Assembly (NCBI GenBank): GCA_001803045.1
Contig: MHAR01000021.1
Coordinates: 1-64,000, forward strand
Length of the DNA stretch: 64,000 bases
Direction: 5' to 3'
From: Ignavibacteria bacterium RIFOXYB12_FULL_35_14
Lineage (GTDB): Bacteria > Bacteroidota > Ignavibacteria > Ignavibacteriales > Ignavibacteriaceae
Both the position numbers and the translations under genes were made by a program. Every line of letters starts with the position of its first letter. The first letter of the stretch is position 1. A model generated the notes under the pieces. That model saw nothing but the letters and a program-made list of their open reading frames with translations, was not told the origin of the DNA and did not search any database. Below are positions 17,279 through 28,451 of this stretch, one piece after another.

Positions 17279-17321
17279 CTACGGATCAGAAGGTTTGGGG
17301 TTCGAATCCCTACGGGTGTAC
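17279..17321 (+). repeat. tRNA-Arg 3'-end duplication (attachment site)
   Basis: CTACGGATCAGAAGGTT is identical to tRNA positions 2394-2410. The rest is a variant 3' end: T stem TGGGG/CCCTA around TTCGAAT, then CGGGTGTA. No acceptor 5' strand or D arm precedes it, so this is a fragment and not a tRNA gene. It marks the distal end of Island A and the start of Island B. The same variant 3' end occurs at 28336-28405, so it may be the original host sequence. Confidence 0.85.
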
Positions 17322-17341: not shown

Positions 17342-18796
17342 TTAATCGATGATAAGGTGTTTACCTTCATCAGGTTCGGAAAATGCGTTGTGAGTTGCTA
17401 AATACTTATACATTTTGTCATAATCCTCATTGTTAAGATATGAACTAAACTCGTGAGCTTTAGAAAGCATTTCAACATAAGGAACTGGGTCTTTATCTCT
17501 TGTAAGTTTTTTTAATGTGCGTAAATAATCTTCACGATACACTGTTGGAATAATTATTTTACATTGATTGCGATTTACTAATTCAGCATTCATCATAACG
17601 CGAGCAATCCTACCATTGCCATCTTCAAATGGATGGACTTCACTTACAAGAAACATCATATAGGCTGTACGTGCAAATGGATCAGTTAATATCTTATAAT
17701 AATCAAATCCACGTATCAGCGTGCCTCGAACAAGTTTTACTTCAACAAAATGAGTATCACCAGCACGATTATTTTTAAGTTTAAATTCACCAGGATGTTT
17801 GTCGGTACGTGCGGATAAAAGAGTTTTATGACGAGACTGCAATATCTTTAGAAATTCATTTTCATCACTTGGAATAATTTTCATTTCATTTCTATTCGAT
17901 ACCAATCTATAAGTTCCAAGAATATCGTGAGAATCTCCGCTGCGAGCCGGTAATGGAATACCAGTGTCAATTATTTCTTTTGCCTCGGATACCTCAAACA
18001 CAGTGCCTTCTATGTAATTAGAAAAGTACGACTCAAAAAAAGCAAAATTCCCGAATGAGTTTGGAGTCAAATTATTCTCAGGGTACTCTTGGAATACTTT
18101 ATTATGTAGATAATTAAAAAGTATCTCAAAGATTTCAATCCTATGTCTATCATACGGAAGACCGACTGAACGAGAAAGTGCAAGATCAGACTTTAGTATT
18201 TTAGATGGTTTAGTTGTAAATAAAGCACCCATGATTTTATTCAACAGCTCATATTCTTTTTGCATATCCAAAATTTTGGATAAATCTCTTGCCTTATCAC
18301 GTAAGCTATTTAAACCTTCTTCTCCTTTGATTCTAAGAATATCATCAAGCTTTTCTTCTATTTGCGGAATGCTTAAAGTTTTAGAATCATGACCAGTCTT
18401 TTTTGTTATTTGTAGATTCTCCAGAAATCTGCGGGGTTCCGAGGCAACATAAAGCTCCCCTATCATTTTATTGTCTCCGGCAACGGGACCTTTCCCTTCA
18501 AGAAAATTTATAGTAATGCCAGGCAATTTTATTTTTTTTGTATATGTATAAGTAACAAATAATTTATTTGTAGCCGTTGGTTTAAATTCAAAAGCAGAGC
18601 GATGACTTAGCACCGCTTCCGGATATAGATTTCCCAATATCTCAAGAATGTTTCTTTTGACTATGGCTGAAGGAGCTTCTTCAAGATTAGTAGAATAAAT
18701 CCTTGGAGCTATCTTCCGAATTTTCTTCTCTTGAAGCATTTTAGAAATTTTGTAATTCTCTTGTCTATCCATCGATGAAAATATTAACTCACTCAT
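17342..18796 (-). CDS. AbiEi-like regulator fused to a Fic AMP-transferase
   Basis: The first 120 residues resemble the AbiEi/AbiEi_4 antitoxin-regulator region: a winged helix (ISKMLQEKKIRKIAPRIYST), then EILGNLYPEAVLSHRSAFEF and a beta-rich part. The C-terminal half is a Fic domain with the canonical HPFEDGNGR at 388-396. An inhibitory-helix motif (S/T)xxxE(G/N) is present before it (S259-N-Y-I-E263-G264), as in self-inhibited class II Fic proteins. Fic enzymes transfer AMP or other groups to target proteins. The architecture suggests a toxin carrying its own regulator. Six direct repeats directly upstream are candidate binding sites. Confidence 0.85.
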   Translation of the reverse strand: MSELIFSSMDRQENYKISKMLQEKKIRKIAPRIYSTNLEEAPSAIVKRNILEILGNLYPEAVLSHRSAFEFKPTATNKLFVTYTYTKKIKLPGITINFLEGKGPVAGDNKMIGELYVASEPRRFLENLQITKKTGHDSKTLSIPQIEEKLDDILRIKGEEGLNSLRDKARDLSKILDMQKEYELLNKIMGALFTTKPSKILKSDLALSRSVGLPYDRHRIEIFEILFNYLHNKVFQEYPENNLTPNSFGNFAFFESYFSNYIEGTVFEVSEAKEIIDTGIPLPARSGDSHDILGTYRLVSNRNEMKIIPSDENEFLKILQSRHKTLLSARTDKHPGEFKLKNNRAGDTHFVEVKLVRGTLIRGFDYYKILTDPFARTAYMMFLVSEVHPFEDGNGRIARVMMNAELVNRNQCKIIIPTVYREDYLRTLKKLTRDKDPVPYVEMLSKAHEFSSYLNNEDYDKMYKYLATHNAFSEPDEGKHLIID

Positions 18797-18988
18797 TGTA
18801 AAAATTTTCCATAATAATGATAATTATGCTTTAAAATTGTAATTATTTTCCAGAATAAGCAAGTATATTTGTATTTTTTTCCAGAAAGGAACGATTTGTA
18901 AGATTTTCCAGAATAACTAGAATAGTAGAGAGAACTTGTAATTATTTTCCAAGATAGACTTATATTTTGTAATTATTTTCCATTATAA
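18796..18988. repeat. six direct repeats upstream of the Fic gene
   Basis: A unit close to TTGTAATTATTTTCCAGAAT begins at 18796, 18837, 18869, 18896, 18936 and 18967 (spacings 41, 32, 27, 40 and 31 bp). The core TTTTCCA is kept in all six. The first abuts the start codon of the fic gene. Irregular spacing and AT-rich units exclude a CRISPR array. The arrangement suits cooperative binding of a repressor, most simply the winged-helix N-terminus of the Fic protein itself. Confidence 0.75.
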
Positions 18989-19483: not shown

Positions 19484-22078
19484 ATGCTTAAAAACGAACA
19501 AAAATTTTATTCTGCTTTAGAAGATGTTTTTATCGGCGAAGCCGGTAAAAAAATTGAAGGAAAATCCGGCTTTGTGAATCTGATGAAAATTAAAAGCCAG
19601 TACTTCGCAAAGATAAAACCTTACATTCAAAAAGAAGTTGCTAAAAAAATAAAAGATGATAAAGAGAGAGAAGAACTTTATCAGAAACTCTATACTTTCT
19701 TTGAGAGTTATTTGAATGAAACCGGTACTCCCTTCTTTAGTCAAACGCCTTTTTATAAAAATCTTTATGAAAAAGTTTACAGCGAAAGAGAGGATGTTTC
19801 TCTCTTCTGGAAAACACAACGGCTTTATTATGTGAAGTCTGAAGCTACATATAGTACAGTTAATAATTTAGAAGTTGATGAACTGCTGTTTGATTTTGAT
19901 GCAAGTAATATTGAGCATAAGAAAAGCAACGAGAAAAAAGAATTGGAATTTTATTTAACCGATGCCGCTAATGAAAAGCTGACTTTTAAAGTTCTTTACG
20001 CTGATAACTCAAGAGCAAAGTATGATAAGCTAAAAGAATATTTGGGACAGGATTCACCAGATGCCGTAAGAAAATTTATTGCAGAGAATGCTGGAAAAGT
20101 TAAGCATCCAAATGTTAAGGTTGTCAAAAACAATTTGAAGCGTGAAGGATTAAAAACAAAAACGCTGCAGGGTGCACTTCTTTTAATCAGTAATGAAGAT
20201 GCAATTAATACAGTTACAATTGAGTTTGCAATAAGCAAAATTGACGATATTCTTGATTATGCTGAGGCAAATAATTTATACAAAGTTTCTGAAGAAGGTT
20301 TGAAAAAAGCTTTTGCAGTTTACAAAAAGCAAAATGAAGTGGATTACTTTATCCACAAAGATGCAGAAGCATTTCTTAAAGAGCAGTTTGATTTATTTAT
20401 GTACCAGCAGCTTTTCGGAGATAACAATTTATATAATGAGTGGAAAGTAGAAAGAATTGTGTATGTACAAAAAATAAAGCAGTTGGCTTATAACGTAATT
20501 GAATATATTGCAAAGTTTGAGGAGGAGCTGAAAGCAATTTGGAACAAGCCAAAGTTTGTTAGAAACAGTAACTATGTTCTAACACTTGATAAGCTTGCTA
20601 ATAATGTAGAACTGATAAAGAAAATTATTATTCATCCAGGATGGACTGAACAAGTTAAAGAGTGGAGGGAACTAGAAAAAGAATGGATGGATGAAAATGG
20701 TGAAGAATTAAAAAAAGAATGGAAAGAGTTTGAAAAAGCGGCCCAATTAAAAAATAAAAATATAATTATAGATGGGAAACTCAATAAAGAATACAAGTAT
20801 TTACCAATTGATACAAAATATTTTGAAGGGTTGAAGAATGAAATTCTGTTAAATTTCGAAAACATAGAGAATCAGATAGATGGCATTTTAATAAAGTCAG
20901 ATAACTATCAGGCACTACAAACTATATTACCAAAATTTGAAGAAGAAGTTGAGCTAATTTATGTTGACCCACCGTTTAATACTGGAAATGATTTTGCTTA
21001 TAAAGATAAATTTCAAGATAGTACTTGGTTAACTCTTATTGCTAATAGATTAGATATTGGTTATAAATATTTAAAGAAAAATGGAAGCTTCTATCTGCAT
21101 TTAGATCACAACGCGAATTATTTAGGGAGACACATTTTTCAACAAAAATTCTCAAAAAGTAATTTTCAAAGAGAAATAATCTGGTACTTTGACAATGTAT
21201 CTGGATTTAAAAGCATCGCAGACAATTGGATACGGGATCACGAAACGATTATTTGGTTCACAAAAACAAAGGGAGATTATATTTTTAATAAAGTTTATGG
21301 TGATTATCCAGAAGGCTATGAAGATAAATTTACTAATGATGATGGAGATGGTAGACTATATATGAAAAGGGGCGGAAGAAAACAGTATCTCGATGAATTA
21401 AAAGGAAAACCTTTAGGTGATGTATGGAGAATCCCATTCATTAATAATATGTCTCTGGAGAGAGTCGGGTTCGATACACAAAAACCGGAATATTTGCTCT
21501 ATAGAATTGTTAAAGCGAATTCTATTAAAAATAATCTGATATTGGATTTTTTTACCGGTTCCGGTACAACTATAGCTGTAGCACAAAAATTAAATAGAAA
21601 ATGGATTGGCATTGAACAAGGTGCACATTTTTATTCAATAATAATTCCAAGATTAAAAAAAGTCTTAATCGGAGATACAGCGGGAATTTCAAATGATGAA
21701 AATGTTAAATGGCAAGGCGGCGGCTTCTTCAAGTATTATGAATTAGAGCAATATGAAGAAGCATTGTCAAGAGCAAAGTATAATCCAAGGGAAGGTGATC
21801 TTTCTAATATTAATTTTTCTAAAGATGAAAAGCTTTTAGATGCAATGGTAATTGATGAGGAAAAAGAAGAAGTAAAAATTCATTTTGAATTACTGTACCC
21901 GGATGTTGATATAGCAGAAACAATATCCAACGTTACAGGCAAAAAAATAAAAAAGCTGAATAAAGAGAGAGTAATATTTGAAGATGATACGCAAATTGAG
22001 TTTGAAAATATGAATTATTATGACCCGATATTTAAGGATGCTTACAGAAGTTTACTTTGGTGGAAGAGTAAAGAGTAG
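19484..22078 (+). CDS. mod: type III restriction-modification system methyltransferase (Mod)
   Basis: 864 residues. The DNA adenine-N6 methyltransferase core is C-terminal: motif IV DPPFNTGND at 495-503 and the SAM-binding motif FFTGSGTTIA starting near 689, followed by NRKWIGIEQ. This motif order (IV before I) is that of the beta class that includes type III Mod subunits. The long N-terminal region of about 470 residues is helical and Lys/Glu-rich. With res (23698-26667) it should methylate one strand of an asymmetric site; the target recognition region between the motifs cannot be read from sequence. Confidence 0.92.
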   Translation: MLKNEQKFYSALEDVFIGEAGKKIEGKSGFVNLMKIKSQYFAKIKPYIQKEVAKKIKDDKEREELYQKLYTFFESYLNETGTPFFSQTPFYKNLYEKVYSEREDVSLFWKTQRLYYVKSEATYSTVNNLEVDELLFDFDASNIEHKKSNEKKELEFYLTDAANEKLTFKVLYADNSRAKYDKLKEYLGQDSPDAVRKFIAENAGKVKHPNVKVVKNNLKREGLKTKTLQGALLLISNEDAINTVTIEFAISKIDDILDYAEANNLYKVSEEGLKKAFAVYKKQNEVDYFIHKDAEAFLKEQFDLFMYQQLFGDNNLYNEWKVERIVYVQKIKQLAYNVIEYIAKFEEELKAIWNKPKFVRNSNYVLTLDKLANNVELIKKIIIHPGWTEQVKEWRELEKEWMDENGEELKKEWKEFEKAAQLKNKNIIIDGKLNKEYKYLPIDTKYFEGLKNEILLNFENIENQIDGILIKSDNYQALQTILPKFEEEVELIYVDPPFNTGNDFAYKDKFQDSTWLTLIANRLDIGYKYLKKNGSFYLHLDHNANYLGRHIFQQKFSKSNFQREIIWYFDNVSGFKSIADNWIRDHETIIWFTKTKGDYIFNKVYGDYPEGYEDKFTNDDGDGRLYMKRGGRKQYLDELKGKPLGDVWRIPFINNMSLERVGFDTQKPEYLLYRIVKANSIKNNLILDFFTGSGTTIAVAQKLNRKWIGIEQGAHFYSIIIPRLKKVLIGDTAGISNDENVKWQGGGFFKYYELEQYEEALSRAKYNPREGDLSNINFSKDEKLLDAMVIDEEKEEVKIHFELLYPDVDIAETISNVTGKKIKKLNKERVIFEDDTQIEFENMNYYDPIFKDAYRSLLWWKSKE

Positions 22079-22128
22079 AGACAATTAAAAATTATAAATT
22101 CCGCCAAAGGCGGACAGGTAAAAATTTG

Positions 22129-23454
22129 ATGCCCGAAAATCAGAACATAGAATATAAATCAAGCTGGCACGATGACTGGCTGAAATGGATTTGCGGATTT
22201 GCAAATGCAAGCGGCGGTAAGTTATACATCGGGAAAGATGATAAAGGCAACGCTATTGGAATTGATGATTCTAAAAAACTGATGGATGATTTGCCGAATA
22301 AGCTAAGGAACTATCTCGGGATTACTTCAGAAGTAAATCTGTTGGAAGAAAATGATAAATACTTTATAGAGATTATTACTCAACCACAGAGTGTCGCAAT
22401 TTCCTTAAGAGGAAGATATTATAAACGTATAGGAAGTATTAATACCGAACTAACTGGAAATAACCTAAATGAGTTTCTGTTAAAAAAATCAGGCAAAACT
22501 TGGGATGATGTAATAGAAGAAAGAGCAACTCAAAACGATATTGACGAAGAAAGTATAAAAAGATTTATAAACATTGCAGAAAAAACAAATCGTTTACCGG
22601 ATATTACTGGACTTACAAATTTTGAAATCCTTGAAAAATTAAGACTCACCGAAGGTGAAAAATATAAAAGAGCAGCAATAATTCTTTTCGGAAAAGATCC
22701 GGGTAAATTCTATCCAAGCATTTCAGTTAAAATAGGCAAGTTCGGCAAATCTGCTGATGAACTTCTATACGAAGAAGTAGAAGAAGGCAATTTGTTTAAG
22801 ATTCTACAGAATGTTCTCAATCAGTTAAACAGAAAATTTTTTAGGAACCCTATAGACTTTGAAGGAATGCAACGTATTGAAAAGGGCGAGTATCCGATTG
22901 CAGCTGTTCGGGAAATGCTTTTAAATGCTCTCGCACATAAAAGTTATAACGGTGCAGCGATTCAAATTAGAATATATGACGATAAGATAAATATTTGGAA
23001 TGAAGGCACATTACCGCCGGAGCTAACATTAGATTCTTTAACAAAACAGCACCCTTCTATACCAAGAAACCCTATAATTGCAGATGTATGTTACAAAGGT
23101 GGTTTTATTGATACTTGGGGTCGTGGTACACTAAAGATAATAAATGCTTGTAAAGAAGCTGAATTACCATCACCCGAAATAAAAGAAGAATTTGGCGGTT
23201 TTTCAGTAACAATTTTCAAAGATGTTTTAACGGATGAGCTTTTAAGAAAGTTAGGTTTGAATGAACGACAGATAAAAGCAGTGTTATATGTTAAGGAAAG
23301 TGGAAAGATTACAAACAAGGAATACCGTGATTTGAATAATATTTCAGATGAAGGTGCTCGTATCGACTTAAATGATCTTATAGAAAAAAACATATTTATT
23401 GCTGAAGGTAGTGGAAGAAGCTCACACTACTTACTTAATAAACTTGGCGATTAG
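22129..23454 (+). CDS. Schlafen AlbA_2 domain / HATPase_c_4 protein within the type III RM operon
   Basis: Start chosen at ATG 22129 (MPENQNIEYK). The N-terminus has the AlbA_2/Schlafen pattern: NIEYKSSWHDDWLKWICGFANASGGKL is the classic opening, followed by YIGKDDKGNAIGI and RGRYYKRIGSINTEL (split here into blocks of the domain). Residues about 245-350 fit the HATPase_c_4 domain (AVREMLLNALAHKSY, INIWNEGTLP, RGTLKIINACKEA). The C-terminus looks like a winged helix. It lies 50 nt after mod. Such proteins are frequent passengers in type III operons, with a proposed regulatory or defence role that is not settled. Confidence 0.85.
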   Translation: MPENQNIEYKSSWHDDWLKWICGFANASGGKLYIGKDDKGNAIGIDDSKKLMDDLPNKLRNYLGITSEVNLLEENDKYFIEIITQPQSVAISLRGRYYKRIGSINTELTGNNLNEFLLKKSGKTWDDVIEERATQNDIDEESIKRFINIAEKTNRLPDITGLTNFEILEKLRLTEGEKYKRAAIILFGKDPGKFYPSISVKIGKFGKSADELLYEEVEEGNLFKILQNVLNQLNRKFFRNPIDFEGMQRIEKGEYPIAAVREMLLNALAHKSYNGAAIQIRIYDDKINIWNEGTLPPELTLDSLTKQHPSIPRNPIIADVCYKGGFIDTWGRGTLKIINACKEAELPSPEIKEEFGGFSVTIFKDVLTDELLRKLGLNERQIKAVLYVKESGKITNKEYRDLNNISDEGARIDLNDLIEKNIFIAEGSGRSSHYLLNKLGD

Positions 23455-23495
23455 TTGGCGATTTTGGCGATTAGTTGGCGATTTTGGCGATTAGG
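23444..23495 (+). repeat. short tandem repeat at the 3' end of the AlbA_2 gene
   Basis: A 20-bp unit (GGCGATTAGTTGGCGATTTT) is present in about two and a half copies from 23446. The stop codon of the AlbA_2 gene falls in the first copy, so changes in copy number would leave the current protein unchanged. The repeat may have arisen by slippage after a truncation of the C-terminus. Confidence 0.7.
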
Positions 23496-23697
23496 TATTT
23501 ATCTTATTTGCCCGTTAATTGGCTAATAATTGGTTTTTGTTTTGCTTTAAGTTGGAGATAAATAAAAAAGTATAAAGTTTTAAAAAGTAAAAGCCCCTTA
23601 AAGACGAAACCTTAAGAGGTGTTACTGTCGTGATTCTATAAATTGTGTGATAAACTTAAAAAAGTTTCTGAATAAAAGAAAATTATATAAGAGTTGA

Positions 23698-26667
23698 ATG
23701 AAAGAAATAATCCTTGAAAAAATATGTGAAAATGAGTTCACAGAGAACTATAAATTCATAGATTTAAAGAAATTCGGTGAAAAAGAGGGGAAAATAATCG
23801 CGTTATTCGATTACCAACAAGATGCACTAAAGAATGTAATGAACTGTCTCAATCTGTATTATCAGGACAGAGAGGATTTTTATAAAAAATACAGATTTAA
23901 TGGATTAGATGCGGAATTAGAAGAAAAAGTAAGTATTAACAAAGCTGAGGATAATAGTTCATTTGACATATTAGAGAGCCACTATAAAACAAATCAAGAC
24001 AAGTTAGAATTTAAGAGTATCTGCAATAGAGCTTCATTTTGGATGGCTACAGGAAGTGGTAAAACACTTGTGATGATAAAACTGATTGAGATACTATTTG
24101 AACTTTCAAAATTACCGAAAGAAGCGGGAGGAATACCTAAAAATGATATACTTATTCTTGCACCAAGACCTAAAATATTAAATCAGATTAAAGAACATAT
24201 AGAAGATTTTAACAGAAAGAATGATCTTCAAATTGAATTGAGGGATTTGAGAGAATGGGAGTACTGCAAAAGAAATAGCCCAAATTTGTATGCAGAAAAT
24301 ACGGTAACAGTTTTTTATTACCGTTCGGACAATATAAAAGAAAGCGGTTACGATACTGAGAATGAAACTAATTATCAGAATTATCTACACGGAACCGACA
24401 TTGATGGGTATAAGTTTGGAAGCTGGTATGTAATTTTAGATGAAGCACATAAAGGTGTAACCGGGGACAGTAAGAGACAAAATATTTATCAGGTACTTGC
24501 GAAAGAAGGATTTTTGTTTAACTTCTCAGCCACCTTTACAGATGCGATTGATAAAGCGACAACAGTTTTCAATTTCAACTTAGAAAGGTTTGTTAATTCC
24601 GGTTATGGGAAACACATAAAGGTAACAAACCAGGAGTTCAGGAGTTTTAATAAAAAGAGAGAAGATGAGTTTACTAATAAAGAAAAGAGAAAAATTGTAC
24701 TTAAATCTTTGATTACACTTGCTGCAATTAAAAAAGCAAAAAAGAAAATTTGGGAATCCATCCCTTCGGGAAAAGAGATAAAAGCTTACCTATACCACAA
24801 TCCCCTACTGATCACTATAGCTAATACAATCCAAACAACAGAAGCCGACCTAAAATTATTCTTCAGAGAATTAGCAAAGATTGCAAAAGAAGAAATAGAT
24901 ATTGAAGAAGCAAAGGGAGAGCTAATATTAGAATGGAGAGAACACGAAAACAGAATCTTCCAATTTAATTCGGGTAGAATATCTGATAAATTTATTAGTC
25001 TTTTATCAACGATTACATATAATGACATAAAAAATTTTGTTTTTAATACAAGCGGCAACGGAAGTATTGAGATAATTAATATCGAAGGGAACCAAAGAGA
25101 ATTAGCTTTCAAGATGTCAACGGCCAACAGCAAACCTTTCGCTTTGCTTGTTGCATCCGATGCGACTAACTGGATGAAAGATTTAGATAATTATACAGCA
25201 AGTACAGATGTAATAGCAGAAAGCTTCTTTGACAGATTAAATGAACCAGATAATGAGATAAACATACTATTAGGTAAACAGATTTTTGCTGAAGGCTGGG
25301 ATAGCAACAGACCAAATGTAATCAACTTCATAAATATAGGTGTGAGTGATGCACAGAAATTTGTTCTACAGGCAATGGGACGTGGAATAAGGATTGAGCC
25401 TTTTAAAGGAATCAGAAAAAGATTTGATCATATAGTTGATAAGGATAAATATATAAGCATAGAAGAAGTAGAAAAGATTGAACCTCTTACTCAAGGGTTG
25501 GAAACAGTTTTTATCTTTTCAACAAATAAAGAAACTATTGGAGCAATCCTAAAGAACATCGAAACAAATGAAACGAGAGATGAATGGATAAAAGTTGATG
25601 GAATAAATAAAACAGGTATTAAAGAAGATTTGCCAATTCCGGAGTATGAGCTGGATGTTATATTCAATGAGAACAAATTTAAGATTAGTAAGGAAGATTT
25701 TAATTGTGTTAATGAACTTATTTCAACCGCAGGTGAAAGAGTATTAATAGCAGCCAATAGTTTTAATATAAAGACACTTAAGAAATTAAAAGATGAAAAG
25801 AATTTTACTAATAATTTTGAAACGGGGACAACTTATAATTTAGCTGCAGAAAAAGTTATTACACTTGCTGATGTTCATTTTACATTGAGGCCCAAAAGAC
25901 TTAGGGGTTTTAGAAAAGTAATTGAAGGTGATATTACTCATTTTGAAAAAATAAAAGCTAAAGCGTTTAATGAAATTGAAATAAAAGAATTAAGAGATCA
26001 CATAGAGAAAATAATTGAAGAAAAGTATAAGAATAAAGAAGAACTTGTAGCCCTATTGCGAGAAGGCAAAATTGATGATACACAATTTACTTTAGAATTT
26101 GGGTTATTAGTAAAAAGAGATGAAGGCACTTCATCAAATAAAATACCGTTAGTCAACAGAAAGTTTTTGAAGGAGCATTATTATAATCCAGTATTAATAG
26201 CTACTAATGATTCAAAGGAATATTTTAGAAATATAATTAAAGAAGACAGCGAAATAGAATTTTTCAATGATCTTGTTGAATATTTTGGAAAACCAGATAA
26301 CAGGCTCAAAGCTTACGACTGGTGGTATTTTTCAAAGCTGGTAGAAAATGTTGATGAAATAAAAATACCTTACTTTAATAAAGAAAAAGGAAAGTTTGCC
26401 GATTTTAATCCCGATTTTATTTTCTGGCTAAAAAAGGGGGATAAATATTTTATAAAATTTGTAGATCCTAAAGGAAGACTTCTCGCACTTCAAAACTCAT
26501 TATATAAAGTACAAGGATTTGAAAAAATATTTGATAAGAAAGCATACTCTTTTAATAAGAAAAAATTGGAAGTTGAGCTGCATTTATACAACCCTACCGG
26601 TGAAGTGCATTTTGCAGAATTAAAAGATTATTATAAAAGCAGCGTGGAAGACATATTTAAAGATTAA
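23698..26667 (+). CDS. res: type III restriction endonuclease subunit (Res)
   Basis: 989 residues. Helicase motifs of superfamily 2 are in order: Walker A ATGSGKT (K122), DEAH at 248-251, SATF (motif III), a GKQIFAEGWDSNRPNV block, and motif VI QAMGRGIRI. The C-terminal region carries a PD-(D/E)xK-like nuclease site: FNPDFIFWLKKGDKYFIKF followed by VDPKG. Res translocates along DNA and cuts when two unmodified sites are met, in complex with Mod. A 243-bp gap separates it from the AlbA_2 gene, so it may have its own promoter. Confidence 0.92.
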   Translation: MKEIILEKICENEFTENYKFIDLKKFGEKEGKIIALFDYQQDALKNVMNCLNLYYQDREDFYKKYRFNGLDAELEEKVSINKAEDNSSFDILESHYKTNQDKLEFKSICNRASFWMATGSGKTLVMIKLIEILFELSKLPKEAGGIPKNDILILAPRPKILNQIKEHIEDFNRKNDLQIELRDLREWEYCKRNSPNLYAENTVTVFYYRSDNIKESGYDTENETNYQNYLHGTDIDGYKFGSWYVILDEAHKGVTGDSKRQNIYQVLAKEGFLFNFSATFTDAIDKATTVFNFNLERFVNSGYGKHIKVTNQEFRSFNKKREDEFTNKEKRKIVLKSLITLAAIKKAKKKIWESIPSGKEIKAYLYHNPLLITIANTIQTTEADLKLFFRELAKIAKEEIDIEEAKGELILEWREHENRIFQFNSGRISDKFISLLSTITYNDIKNFVFNTSGNGSIEIINIEGNQRELAFKMSTANSKPFALLVASDATNWMKDLDNYTASTDVIAESFFDRLNEPDNEINILLGKQIFAEGWDSNRPNVINFINIGVSDAQKFVLQAMGRGIRIEPFKGIRKRFDHIVDKDKYISIEEVEKIEPLTQGLETVFIFSTNKETIGAILKNIETNETRDEWIKVDGINKTGIKEDLPIPEYELDVIFNENKFKISKEDFNCVNELISTAGERVLIAANSFNIKTLKKLKDEKNFTNNFETGTTYNLAAEKVITLADVHFTLRPKRLRGFRKVIEGDITHFEKIKAKAFNEIEIKELRDHIEKIIEEKYKNKEELVALLREGKIDDTQFTLEFGLLVKRDEGTSSNKIPLVNRKFLKEHYYNPVLIATNDSKEYFRNIIKEDSEIEFFNDLVEYFGKPDNRLKAYDWWYFSKLVENVDEIKIPYFNKEKGKFADFNPDFIFWLKKGDKYFIKFVDPKGRLLALQNSLYKVQGFEKIFDKKAYSFNKKKLEVELHLYNPTGEVHFAELKDYYKSSVEDIFKD

Positions 26668-28003: not shown

Positions 28004-28451
28004 CGAAAAAAGAGTATTTTGAATGCGATTATTATTCGTTTAAAACATAAAAGTCTATACCCTTCCTTTGAATCTCCATAGATTATTATAAGCACAAACT
28101 TTTCCATCTCCGGTGTCGATGATTCTACCCTTGACCGGCAGTTTATTTTTATCCACCTTTGGCGGAATTTAGTTCTCTGATTTCTACAATGCTAAATACG
28201 AGCCCATACACGATTTTGGTAAAATGAAGACTTGTTGTTTTTTACTAAGAACATTTTAGAACTCCTTTGCAGTATGGACTGTGTATGGAGTTCCAAACAA
28301 ACTCTGTGTTTTTAGCGAATAATTAGATATTCCCGCTGACTACGGATCAGAAGGTTTGGGGTTCTGGCAGAGCCATTCCTTCGGAAGAATCCCTACGGGT
28401 GTACTAGTAAATAAATAAAACTAAAAAGTCTAAAAGAAGCTGATTAATATT
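28004..28451. other. right end of Island B with tRNA remnant
   Basis: No coding frame. It contains an imperfect hairpin GAACTCC/GGAGTTC (28259-28265 with 28287-28293) of unknown meaning and the degraded tRNA 3' end at 28336-28405. The chromosome backbone resumes with tyrA. Confidence 0.5.
28336..28405 (+). repeat. oldest tRNA-Arg 3'-end copy, split by a 22-bp insertion
   Basis: CTGACTACGGATCAGAAGGTT matches the tRNA from its anticodon stem on (2390-2410) and continues with the same TTGGGG...CCCTACGGGTGTAC ending as the copy at 17279. Inside the T loop 22 bp (28365-28386) are inserted between GGTTC and GAATCCC. It defines the outer edge of the islands and was probably the 3' part of the original tRNA gene before the first integration. 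Confidence 0.75.

Follow-up and report, generated by a model that had tools for sequence, protein, structure and literature searches.

A class II Fic protein with an AbiEi-like N-terminus probably represses its own gene from a phased array of repeats

The window analyzed here is a 64,000-nucleotide stretch of contig MHAR01000021.1 from Ignavibacteria bacterium RIFOXYB12_FULL_35_14. On its minus strand, positions 17342..18796 encode a protein of 484 amino acids with an ATG start, called the Fic protein below. It comprises an AbiEi-like N-terminal part (residues ≈1–130), a helical linker (≈143–235) and a class II Fic domain (≈245–451). The Pfam Fic model PF02661 matched residues 319–405 (E = 3.9e-10; 40.9 bits against a cut-off of 24), and the Fic motif HPFEDGNGR, at residues 388–396 (17609..17635, minus strand), fits the class II Fic/Fido pattern HPFx[D/E]GN[G/K]R. 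N-terminal of it in the same chain lies the inhibitory motif S259NYIEG264 (18005..18022, minus strand), which agrees with (S/T)xxxE(G/N), the definition of the class II inhibitory motif in the available text of PMC9755527. Except for Y261, its residues (S259, N260, I262, E263 and G264) did not vary in either alignment of homologues (13 of 13 and 53 of 53). Both motifs had been named in the initial annotation, and both are present, with the inhibitory glutamate E263 among the invariant positions.

The AlphaFold model of the full-length protein (pLDDT 89.5) matched FICD and other Fic structures. The full-length SoFic model of NCBIfam gave a local match only, at 24.2 bits against a cut-off of 550, and the PADLOC candidate-defence profiles PDC-S04 matched 53 of 53 homologues, by way of the common Fic domain. 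Profiles, motifs and fold agree with the earlier description of a single protein with an AbiEi-like N-terminus and a Fic motif, and place its Fic domain in class II.

We assigned residues 1–130 (18407..18796, minus strand) to AbiEi by PADLOC profiles and fold comparison; Pfam gave no match at the N-terminus of the window protein (at E 1) or of 13 homologues (at E 5), and NCBIfam likewise gave none there. The PADLOC AbiEi profiles matched residues 11–87 of the window protein with E = 2.6e-4, aligning only from profile position 26, and profile PDLC02269 reached E 0.01 or better in 51 of 53 homologues (best E 6.3e-7). The AlphaFold model of residues 1–130 (pLDDT 90.4) has a strand at 4–6, one helix at 11–22 and a hairpin at 27–35, and from about residue 42 to 130 a nucleotidyltransferase-like alpha/beta part. 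The AbiEi structure 6y8q was the first match both by Foldseek (E = 0.034) and by VIA-align (Z = 6.6, rmsd 3.7, 110 residues); next in the ranking came nucleotidyltransferase folds, covering residues ≈44 onward. A Z-score below 8 may reflect a common arrangement only, so the fold evidence for AbiEi is supportive and not decisive. Most of the weak PDB-chain profile matches to this region were Hsp70 fragments (best E 0.027), which we took as chance, and Rv2827c (1zel) was set aside as a fold relative at a Z of only 4.1. The region had been described initially as an AbiEi-like winged helix. The AbiEi likeness stood, but the full winged helix did not: with one helix and a hairpin, it looks truncated in the model, lacking its first helices.

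When searched alone, residues 1–130 were found in 30 of 296 genomes. Twenty-five of the 30 matches sit in open frames of 491–556 codons, which is the length of the fusion, and the remaining five in shorter frames of 453, 462, 400, 272 and 227. At this search sensitivity, and judging from the 25 frames of fusion length, we saw no N-terminal part with another partner in the 296 genomes.

The gene is preceded by a repeat array. TTTTCCA occurs on the plus strand at positions 18805, 18846, 18877, 18904, 18945 and 18976, and when this 194-bp stretch was resampled 20,000 times under a first-order Markov model, no sequence reached six copies (mean 0.09, maximum 3). This bears out the initial report of six upstream repeats, the first touching the start codon. 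On the gene strand, the repeat can be written as a 22-nt unit of about TTATTCTGGAAAATAATTACAA, and the last base of the first unit is the A of the ATG. All units lie on the minus strand. Unit 1, which shares this one base with the start codon, is at 18796..18817; unit 2 (18837..18858) follows at 41 bp and unit 3 (18868..18889), which has diverged, at a further 31 bp. Unit 4 (18895..18916) lies 27 bp from unit 3, unit 5 (18936..18957) 41 bp from unit 4, and unit 6 (18967..18988) 31 bp from unit 5. The spacings along the gene strand are thus 31, 41, 27, 31 and 41, from which we read the array as two triplets, a proximal one of units 1–3 and a distal one of units 4–6. The exact sequence TGGAAAATAATTACAA occurs three times in the window's genome, all within the array, and the paired TGGAAAA pattern in 24 places, five of them in the array and the others scattered, against nine for the reversed control pattern.

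The search for the same domain fusion that the initial annotation had proposed found the full architecture to be common among relatives. At least 565 relatives were found among at least 591 candidate stretches of GTDB genome contigs, of which the best 80 of the 565 were retained. Within the phylum, 42 of 395 genomes matched at E 1e-50, and in the kinship sample 7 of 97 genomes, counting the window's own, matched at E 1e-10. Twenty-one plasmid records from Bacteroidota and Proteobacteria matched, with 80% or more of the protein covered in 19, and no homologue was found in viral contigs and phages. Partial homologues (L004 and L007–L012) were excluded from the statistics; L010 and L011 nevertheless carry repeats. 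The L009/L012 copy in genome G064 is a decayed Fic gene with several stop codons.

For the upstream regions, we kept 120 of 124 matching loci (those whose match began by residue 40 and that had 250 bp or more of upstream sequence), which gave 114 distinct upstreams after removal of duplicates, and 108 for each of two control regions, one 500–760 bp upstream and the other just beyond the gene's end. The offsets at which the 114 upstreams match themselves peak at 31, 41 and 72, and both control regions were flat; a self-match score of at least 17 was reached by 72 of 114 upstreams compared with 7 of 108 and 6 of 108 control regions. A triplet of sites spaced 31 and then 41 bp scored 44.5 on average over the 114 upstreams, against 29.2 for five wrong geometries, and 96 of 114 exceeded the 95th percentile of the wrong-geometry null. 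In a grid of 784 geometries, 31-then-41 ending at the start codon ranked first (44.5 against a mean of 30.2, sd 1.66; z = 8.6). After clustering at 80% protein identity, 52 of 60 clusters had a median triplet score above 35. Thus, the main test proposed in the initial annotation, that the repeats should precede homologues, was passed as regards their geometry. Other Fic genes of the phylum gave a different result: only 2 of 31 passed the triplet threshold, with the start taken from the longest ORF and so possibly upstream of the real one (31 of 32 loci were analyzed, one having no Fic ORF). The repeats are kept in place and in spacing upstream of homologues, in a phased array.

Among 112 of the 114 upstreams, the proximal triplet was present in 83 and a second triplet further upstream in 38, with both in 32. 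The distance between the two triplet starts varies from 78 to 135 bp, which suggests that the array is built of triplets. Eighteen of the 114 upstreams fell below the triplet threshold, including the proteobacterial loci L042, L044, L046 and L047, where the spacing is looser, and part of family f26.

Other Fic genes that carry a C-terminal helix-turn-helix lacked the 31/41 array. A different arrangement was observed at some of these loci (L204, L205, L210, L192, L199 and L200), where a pair of sites resembling each other, in many cases palindromes, lies ahead of the start codon at a distance of ≈40 bp from one another, possibly a second kind of Fic self-operator. DUF6088 genes, which adjoin two homologues, were considered as the source of the array and rejected: the Hymenobacter gene has no 31/41 sites, and the Bacteroides fragilis gene has palindromic sites of its own, 50 bp apart. 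The latter gene, on a plasmid (L038, 1392–1994), has a long palindrome upstream of its start that recurs after 50 bp. DUF6088 had no match in the window's genome.

The core TTTTCCA had been described as constant. This is so in the window array, but across the family it is the spacing that is conserved, and the repeat sequence differs by protein clade. Most Bacteroidota homologues, the window's included, have TGGAAA units; CCCGA/CTCGA units are found in a clade of plasmids from sphingomonads together with one Bacteroidota family; and a clade uniting Variovorax plasmids with another Bacteroidota family has CGACA units. All 19 members of its clade have two or more copies of CGACA, and none of the 46 others does, on a tree of 65 hand-picked rows with long branches at L044, L045, L046, L047 and others, the operator classes having been defined after the sequences were inspected. 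The Variovorax protein L045 has a mean identity of 57% to 17 proteins of family f26 and ≈36% to the two other groups compared, and the sphingomonad proteins L041 and L042 are ≈55% identical to family f32. From the clade-wise repeats and these identities across phyla, we conclude that the operator type tracks the protein and not the host phylum.

These observations bear on whether the array is instead bound by a different, host-encoded regulator, with the Fic protein merely the regulated gene. We infer binding by the Fic protein, and its winged helix looks truncated, both of which leave room for such a regulator. Nor did a partial Mantel test of motif similarity point to a single domain, with r = 0.20 for the N-terminus given the Fic domain, 0.14 for the Fic domain given the N-terminus and 0.28 for the middle given the N-terminus (84 loci), values to be read against domain identities that intercorrelate at 0.92–0.95. 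However, one would expect a regulator of the host to have further sites and to track host taxonomy. Instead, the repeat sequences sort by protein clade even where host phyla differ, nearly all of the other Fic genes tested lack the array, and the exact unit is found nowhere else in the window's genome. We therefore regard a host regulator as unlikely.

A likely promoter position emerged in the TGGAAA class, which comprises 72 of the 114 loci (score at least 14 of 18). Their consensus has A.TTTTg at a constant position in the spacer that separates the middle from the proximal unit. We take TAnnTTTG to be the -7 box of Bacteroidota promoters. The spacer holds a perfect copy of this box in 26 of 72 loci, compared with 6 of 214 control windows, and 45 of 72 loci have at least five of its six letters at one fixed position. 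The promoter of this class is therefore likely to lie between the middle and the proximal unit, as judged from these consensus letters. In the window's array, the corresponding spacer contains no perfect TAnnTTTG. The units of this class are near-palindromic, with a distal consensus of TGGAAAATATTTtcca; out of eight possible pairs, the distal, middle and proximal units have on average 5.15, 4.99 and 3.76, compared with 2.58, 2.87 and 2.10 for shifted centers.

In 55 of the 72 TGGAAA-class loci there is an in-frame, open ATG inside the proximal unit, so the operator reaches into the coding region. In genes of the CGACA class, the first residues appear to be encoded by the last unit, and in the window's own clade the coding sequence begins just after the proximal unit. 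With the start codon in the last unit, the repeats might act through RNA and translation, controlling access of the ribosome and not of RNA polymerase, and the ATG inside the proximal unit speaks for this. Yet if the TAnnTTTG box is the promoter, the proximal unit alone would be transcribed, and all three units are kept at fixed spacing. Moreover, 31 and 41 bp correspond to approximately three and four turns of DNA and differ by about one turn, which also argues against control at the RNA level. We consider this reading very improbable.

The gene usually stands alone, as the earlier reading of a one-gene module had it: a close co-directional downstream gene was found at only 6 of the 69 homologue loci with a downstream ORF. 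Among the neighbor families listed (the first 25 of 134 and the first 25 of 64), there was no dominant partner, and the neighbors are a mixture of housekeeping, mobile-element and defense genes. We did not find a gene for an AbiEii nucleotidyltransferase toxin next to the Fic gene in the window; the neighboring genes there encode an integrase and a type III methyltransferase.

At 20 bp beyond the Fic stop codon lies a partial copy of a tRNA-Arg 3′ end (17279..17321, plus strand) with 88% identity to the tRNA-Arg at 2362–2436. It is probably an attachment-site remnant and belongs to the context of the gene, outside the mechanism. Another copy of the tRNA-Arg 3′ end, split by ≈22 extra bases, is found at 28336–28406. 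The three tRNA-Arg 3′ ends suggest two neighboring integrated segments. The first putative segment contains phage capsid, VapE-like and two integrase genes; the second carries, besides the Fic gene, a set of type III restriction-modification genes (19484–26667). Between the type III methyltransferase and the restriction gene there is a gene with Schlafen/AlbA_2 and HATPase_c_4 (22126–23454), across whose end runs a 20-bp tandem repeat of 2.5 perfect copies (23444–23494).

In such surroundings, the array might serve mobility or maintenance, as recombinase, transposase or partition sites, and have no part in regulation. The tRNA-Arg fragments and the integrase gene beside the window's gene, and the plasmid-borne copies elsewhere, fit this suggestion. 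Against it, the position of the array relative to the start codon is kept across chromosomal and plasmid settings, and no recombinase is constantly linked, Phage_integrase being found in 2 of 131 neighbors. A role in mobility is thus highly improbable.

From the type III restriction-modification neighbors in the window and the Sofic precedent described below, a role in defense appears plausible; the diversity of the homologues' neighbors leaves it plausible at most. The protein could also be an ordinary self-regulated modifier, neither toxin nor defense factor, which is compatible with autorepression and which we hold to be quite possible, though somewhat short of probable. The neighbors of the homologues are mixed, many of them metabolic, and patchy presence is by itself no proof of defense. 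Speaking against an ordinary modifier are that same patchy distribution, both in the kinship sample and in the phylum, the carriage on plasmids, and the PDC-S04 matches, even though these come through the common Fic domain.

Our observations comprise the combination of domains, an intact Fic motif and an intact inhibitory motif, the array, the conservation of its geometry, and the finding that array and protein are inherited together. The retention of the 31/41 layout in distant relatives despite a changed repeat sequence points to an enzyme that turns off the gene encoding it, and we propose that a stand-alone, autoinhibited Fic enzyme of the AMPylase type probably represses its own promoter from the phased operator array. 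Binding of the array by the Fic protein itself, the repression that would follow and AMPylation by the enzyme are inferred from these observations. In this proposal, the protein would bind near-palindromic units of ≈16–22 bp, probably as dimers. Binding would be cooperative, on an operator of one or two triplets with units 31 and 41 bp apart, and because these distances are close to three and four turns, the bound proteins would align on one face of the DNA. They would surround the RNA polymerase site and the start codon and so repress the promoter, while E263 would hold the enzyme off until some trigger acts. Autorepression is supported by the geometry, its specificity for this family, the way the operator follows the protein, the fit to the promoter, the unit found only in the array, and the precedent of CccR. 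The upstreams below threshold, the truncated winged helix, the imperfect TAnnTTTG of the window's own spacer and a Mantel test that singles out no N-terminal role count against it.

A further reading, which we regard as unlikely, is that the array serves as an antitoxin made of DNA, with an ordered protein multimer on the triplet holding the Fic sites closed. If this were true, stripping the protein off the DNA would both lift repression and free active enzyme, in one switch.

Fic enzymes are widespread, and how bacteria silence the dangerous ones is only partly known. Under the proposed autorepression, one gene seems to hold both an enzymatic lock, the inhibitory helix, and a transcriptional one whose spacing is more conserved than its sequence. 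Since the operator changes by clade at a fixed 31/41 geometry, the family offers natural matched pairs of protein and operator, and specificity and cooperative assembly could be tested by swapping them.

In the literature searched, we found no description of an AbiEi–Fic fusion or of such a phased array. Four known systems each share one part with the present one and, as far as the available text of the sources goes, none has this architecture or array. Sofic, reported to protect against phage (PMC12249575), is likewise a class II Fic protein with a second domain (SoFic, PDB 3eqx), but that domain is C-terminal and the one described here N-terminal. RptR is a defense-island autorepressor that acts on three direct repeats, each palindromic, over its own promoter (PMC12255303). 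Unlike the Fic protein, it is described as a small helical protein with 9-bp repeats containing a 6-bp palindrome, and with no fused enzyme. AbiEi of the type IV AbiE systems represses its own promoter through repeats (PMC3985639), and the N-terminal part described here resembles it by HMM and by fold. However, AbiEi is encoded by a gene of its own, with the toxin AbiEii as its partner, whereas here the enzyme is fused and AbiEii is not adjacent; its operators are a pair of inverted repeats (PMC3985639), in contrast to a direct, phased array. The remaining system is CccR of Yersinia pseudotuberculosis, which AMPylates FtsZ, arrests growth of E. coli and is secreted by a type VI system (PMC9755527). 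Its DNA-binding domain is a C-terminal HTH, whereas the AbiEi-like part here is N-terminal, and its operator consists of a single pair of inverted repeats, each of 10 bp and separated by 26 bp, as opposed to a putative phased 31/41 array. Like the protein described here, CccR combines in a single chain a class II Fic domain, with its N-terminal inhibitory helix, and a DNA-binding domain, and it is through this separate domain that CccR represses its own promoter (PMC9755527).
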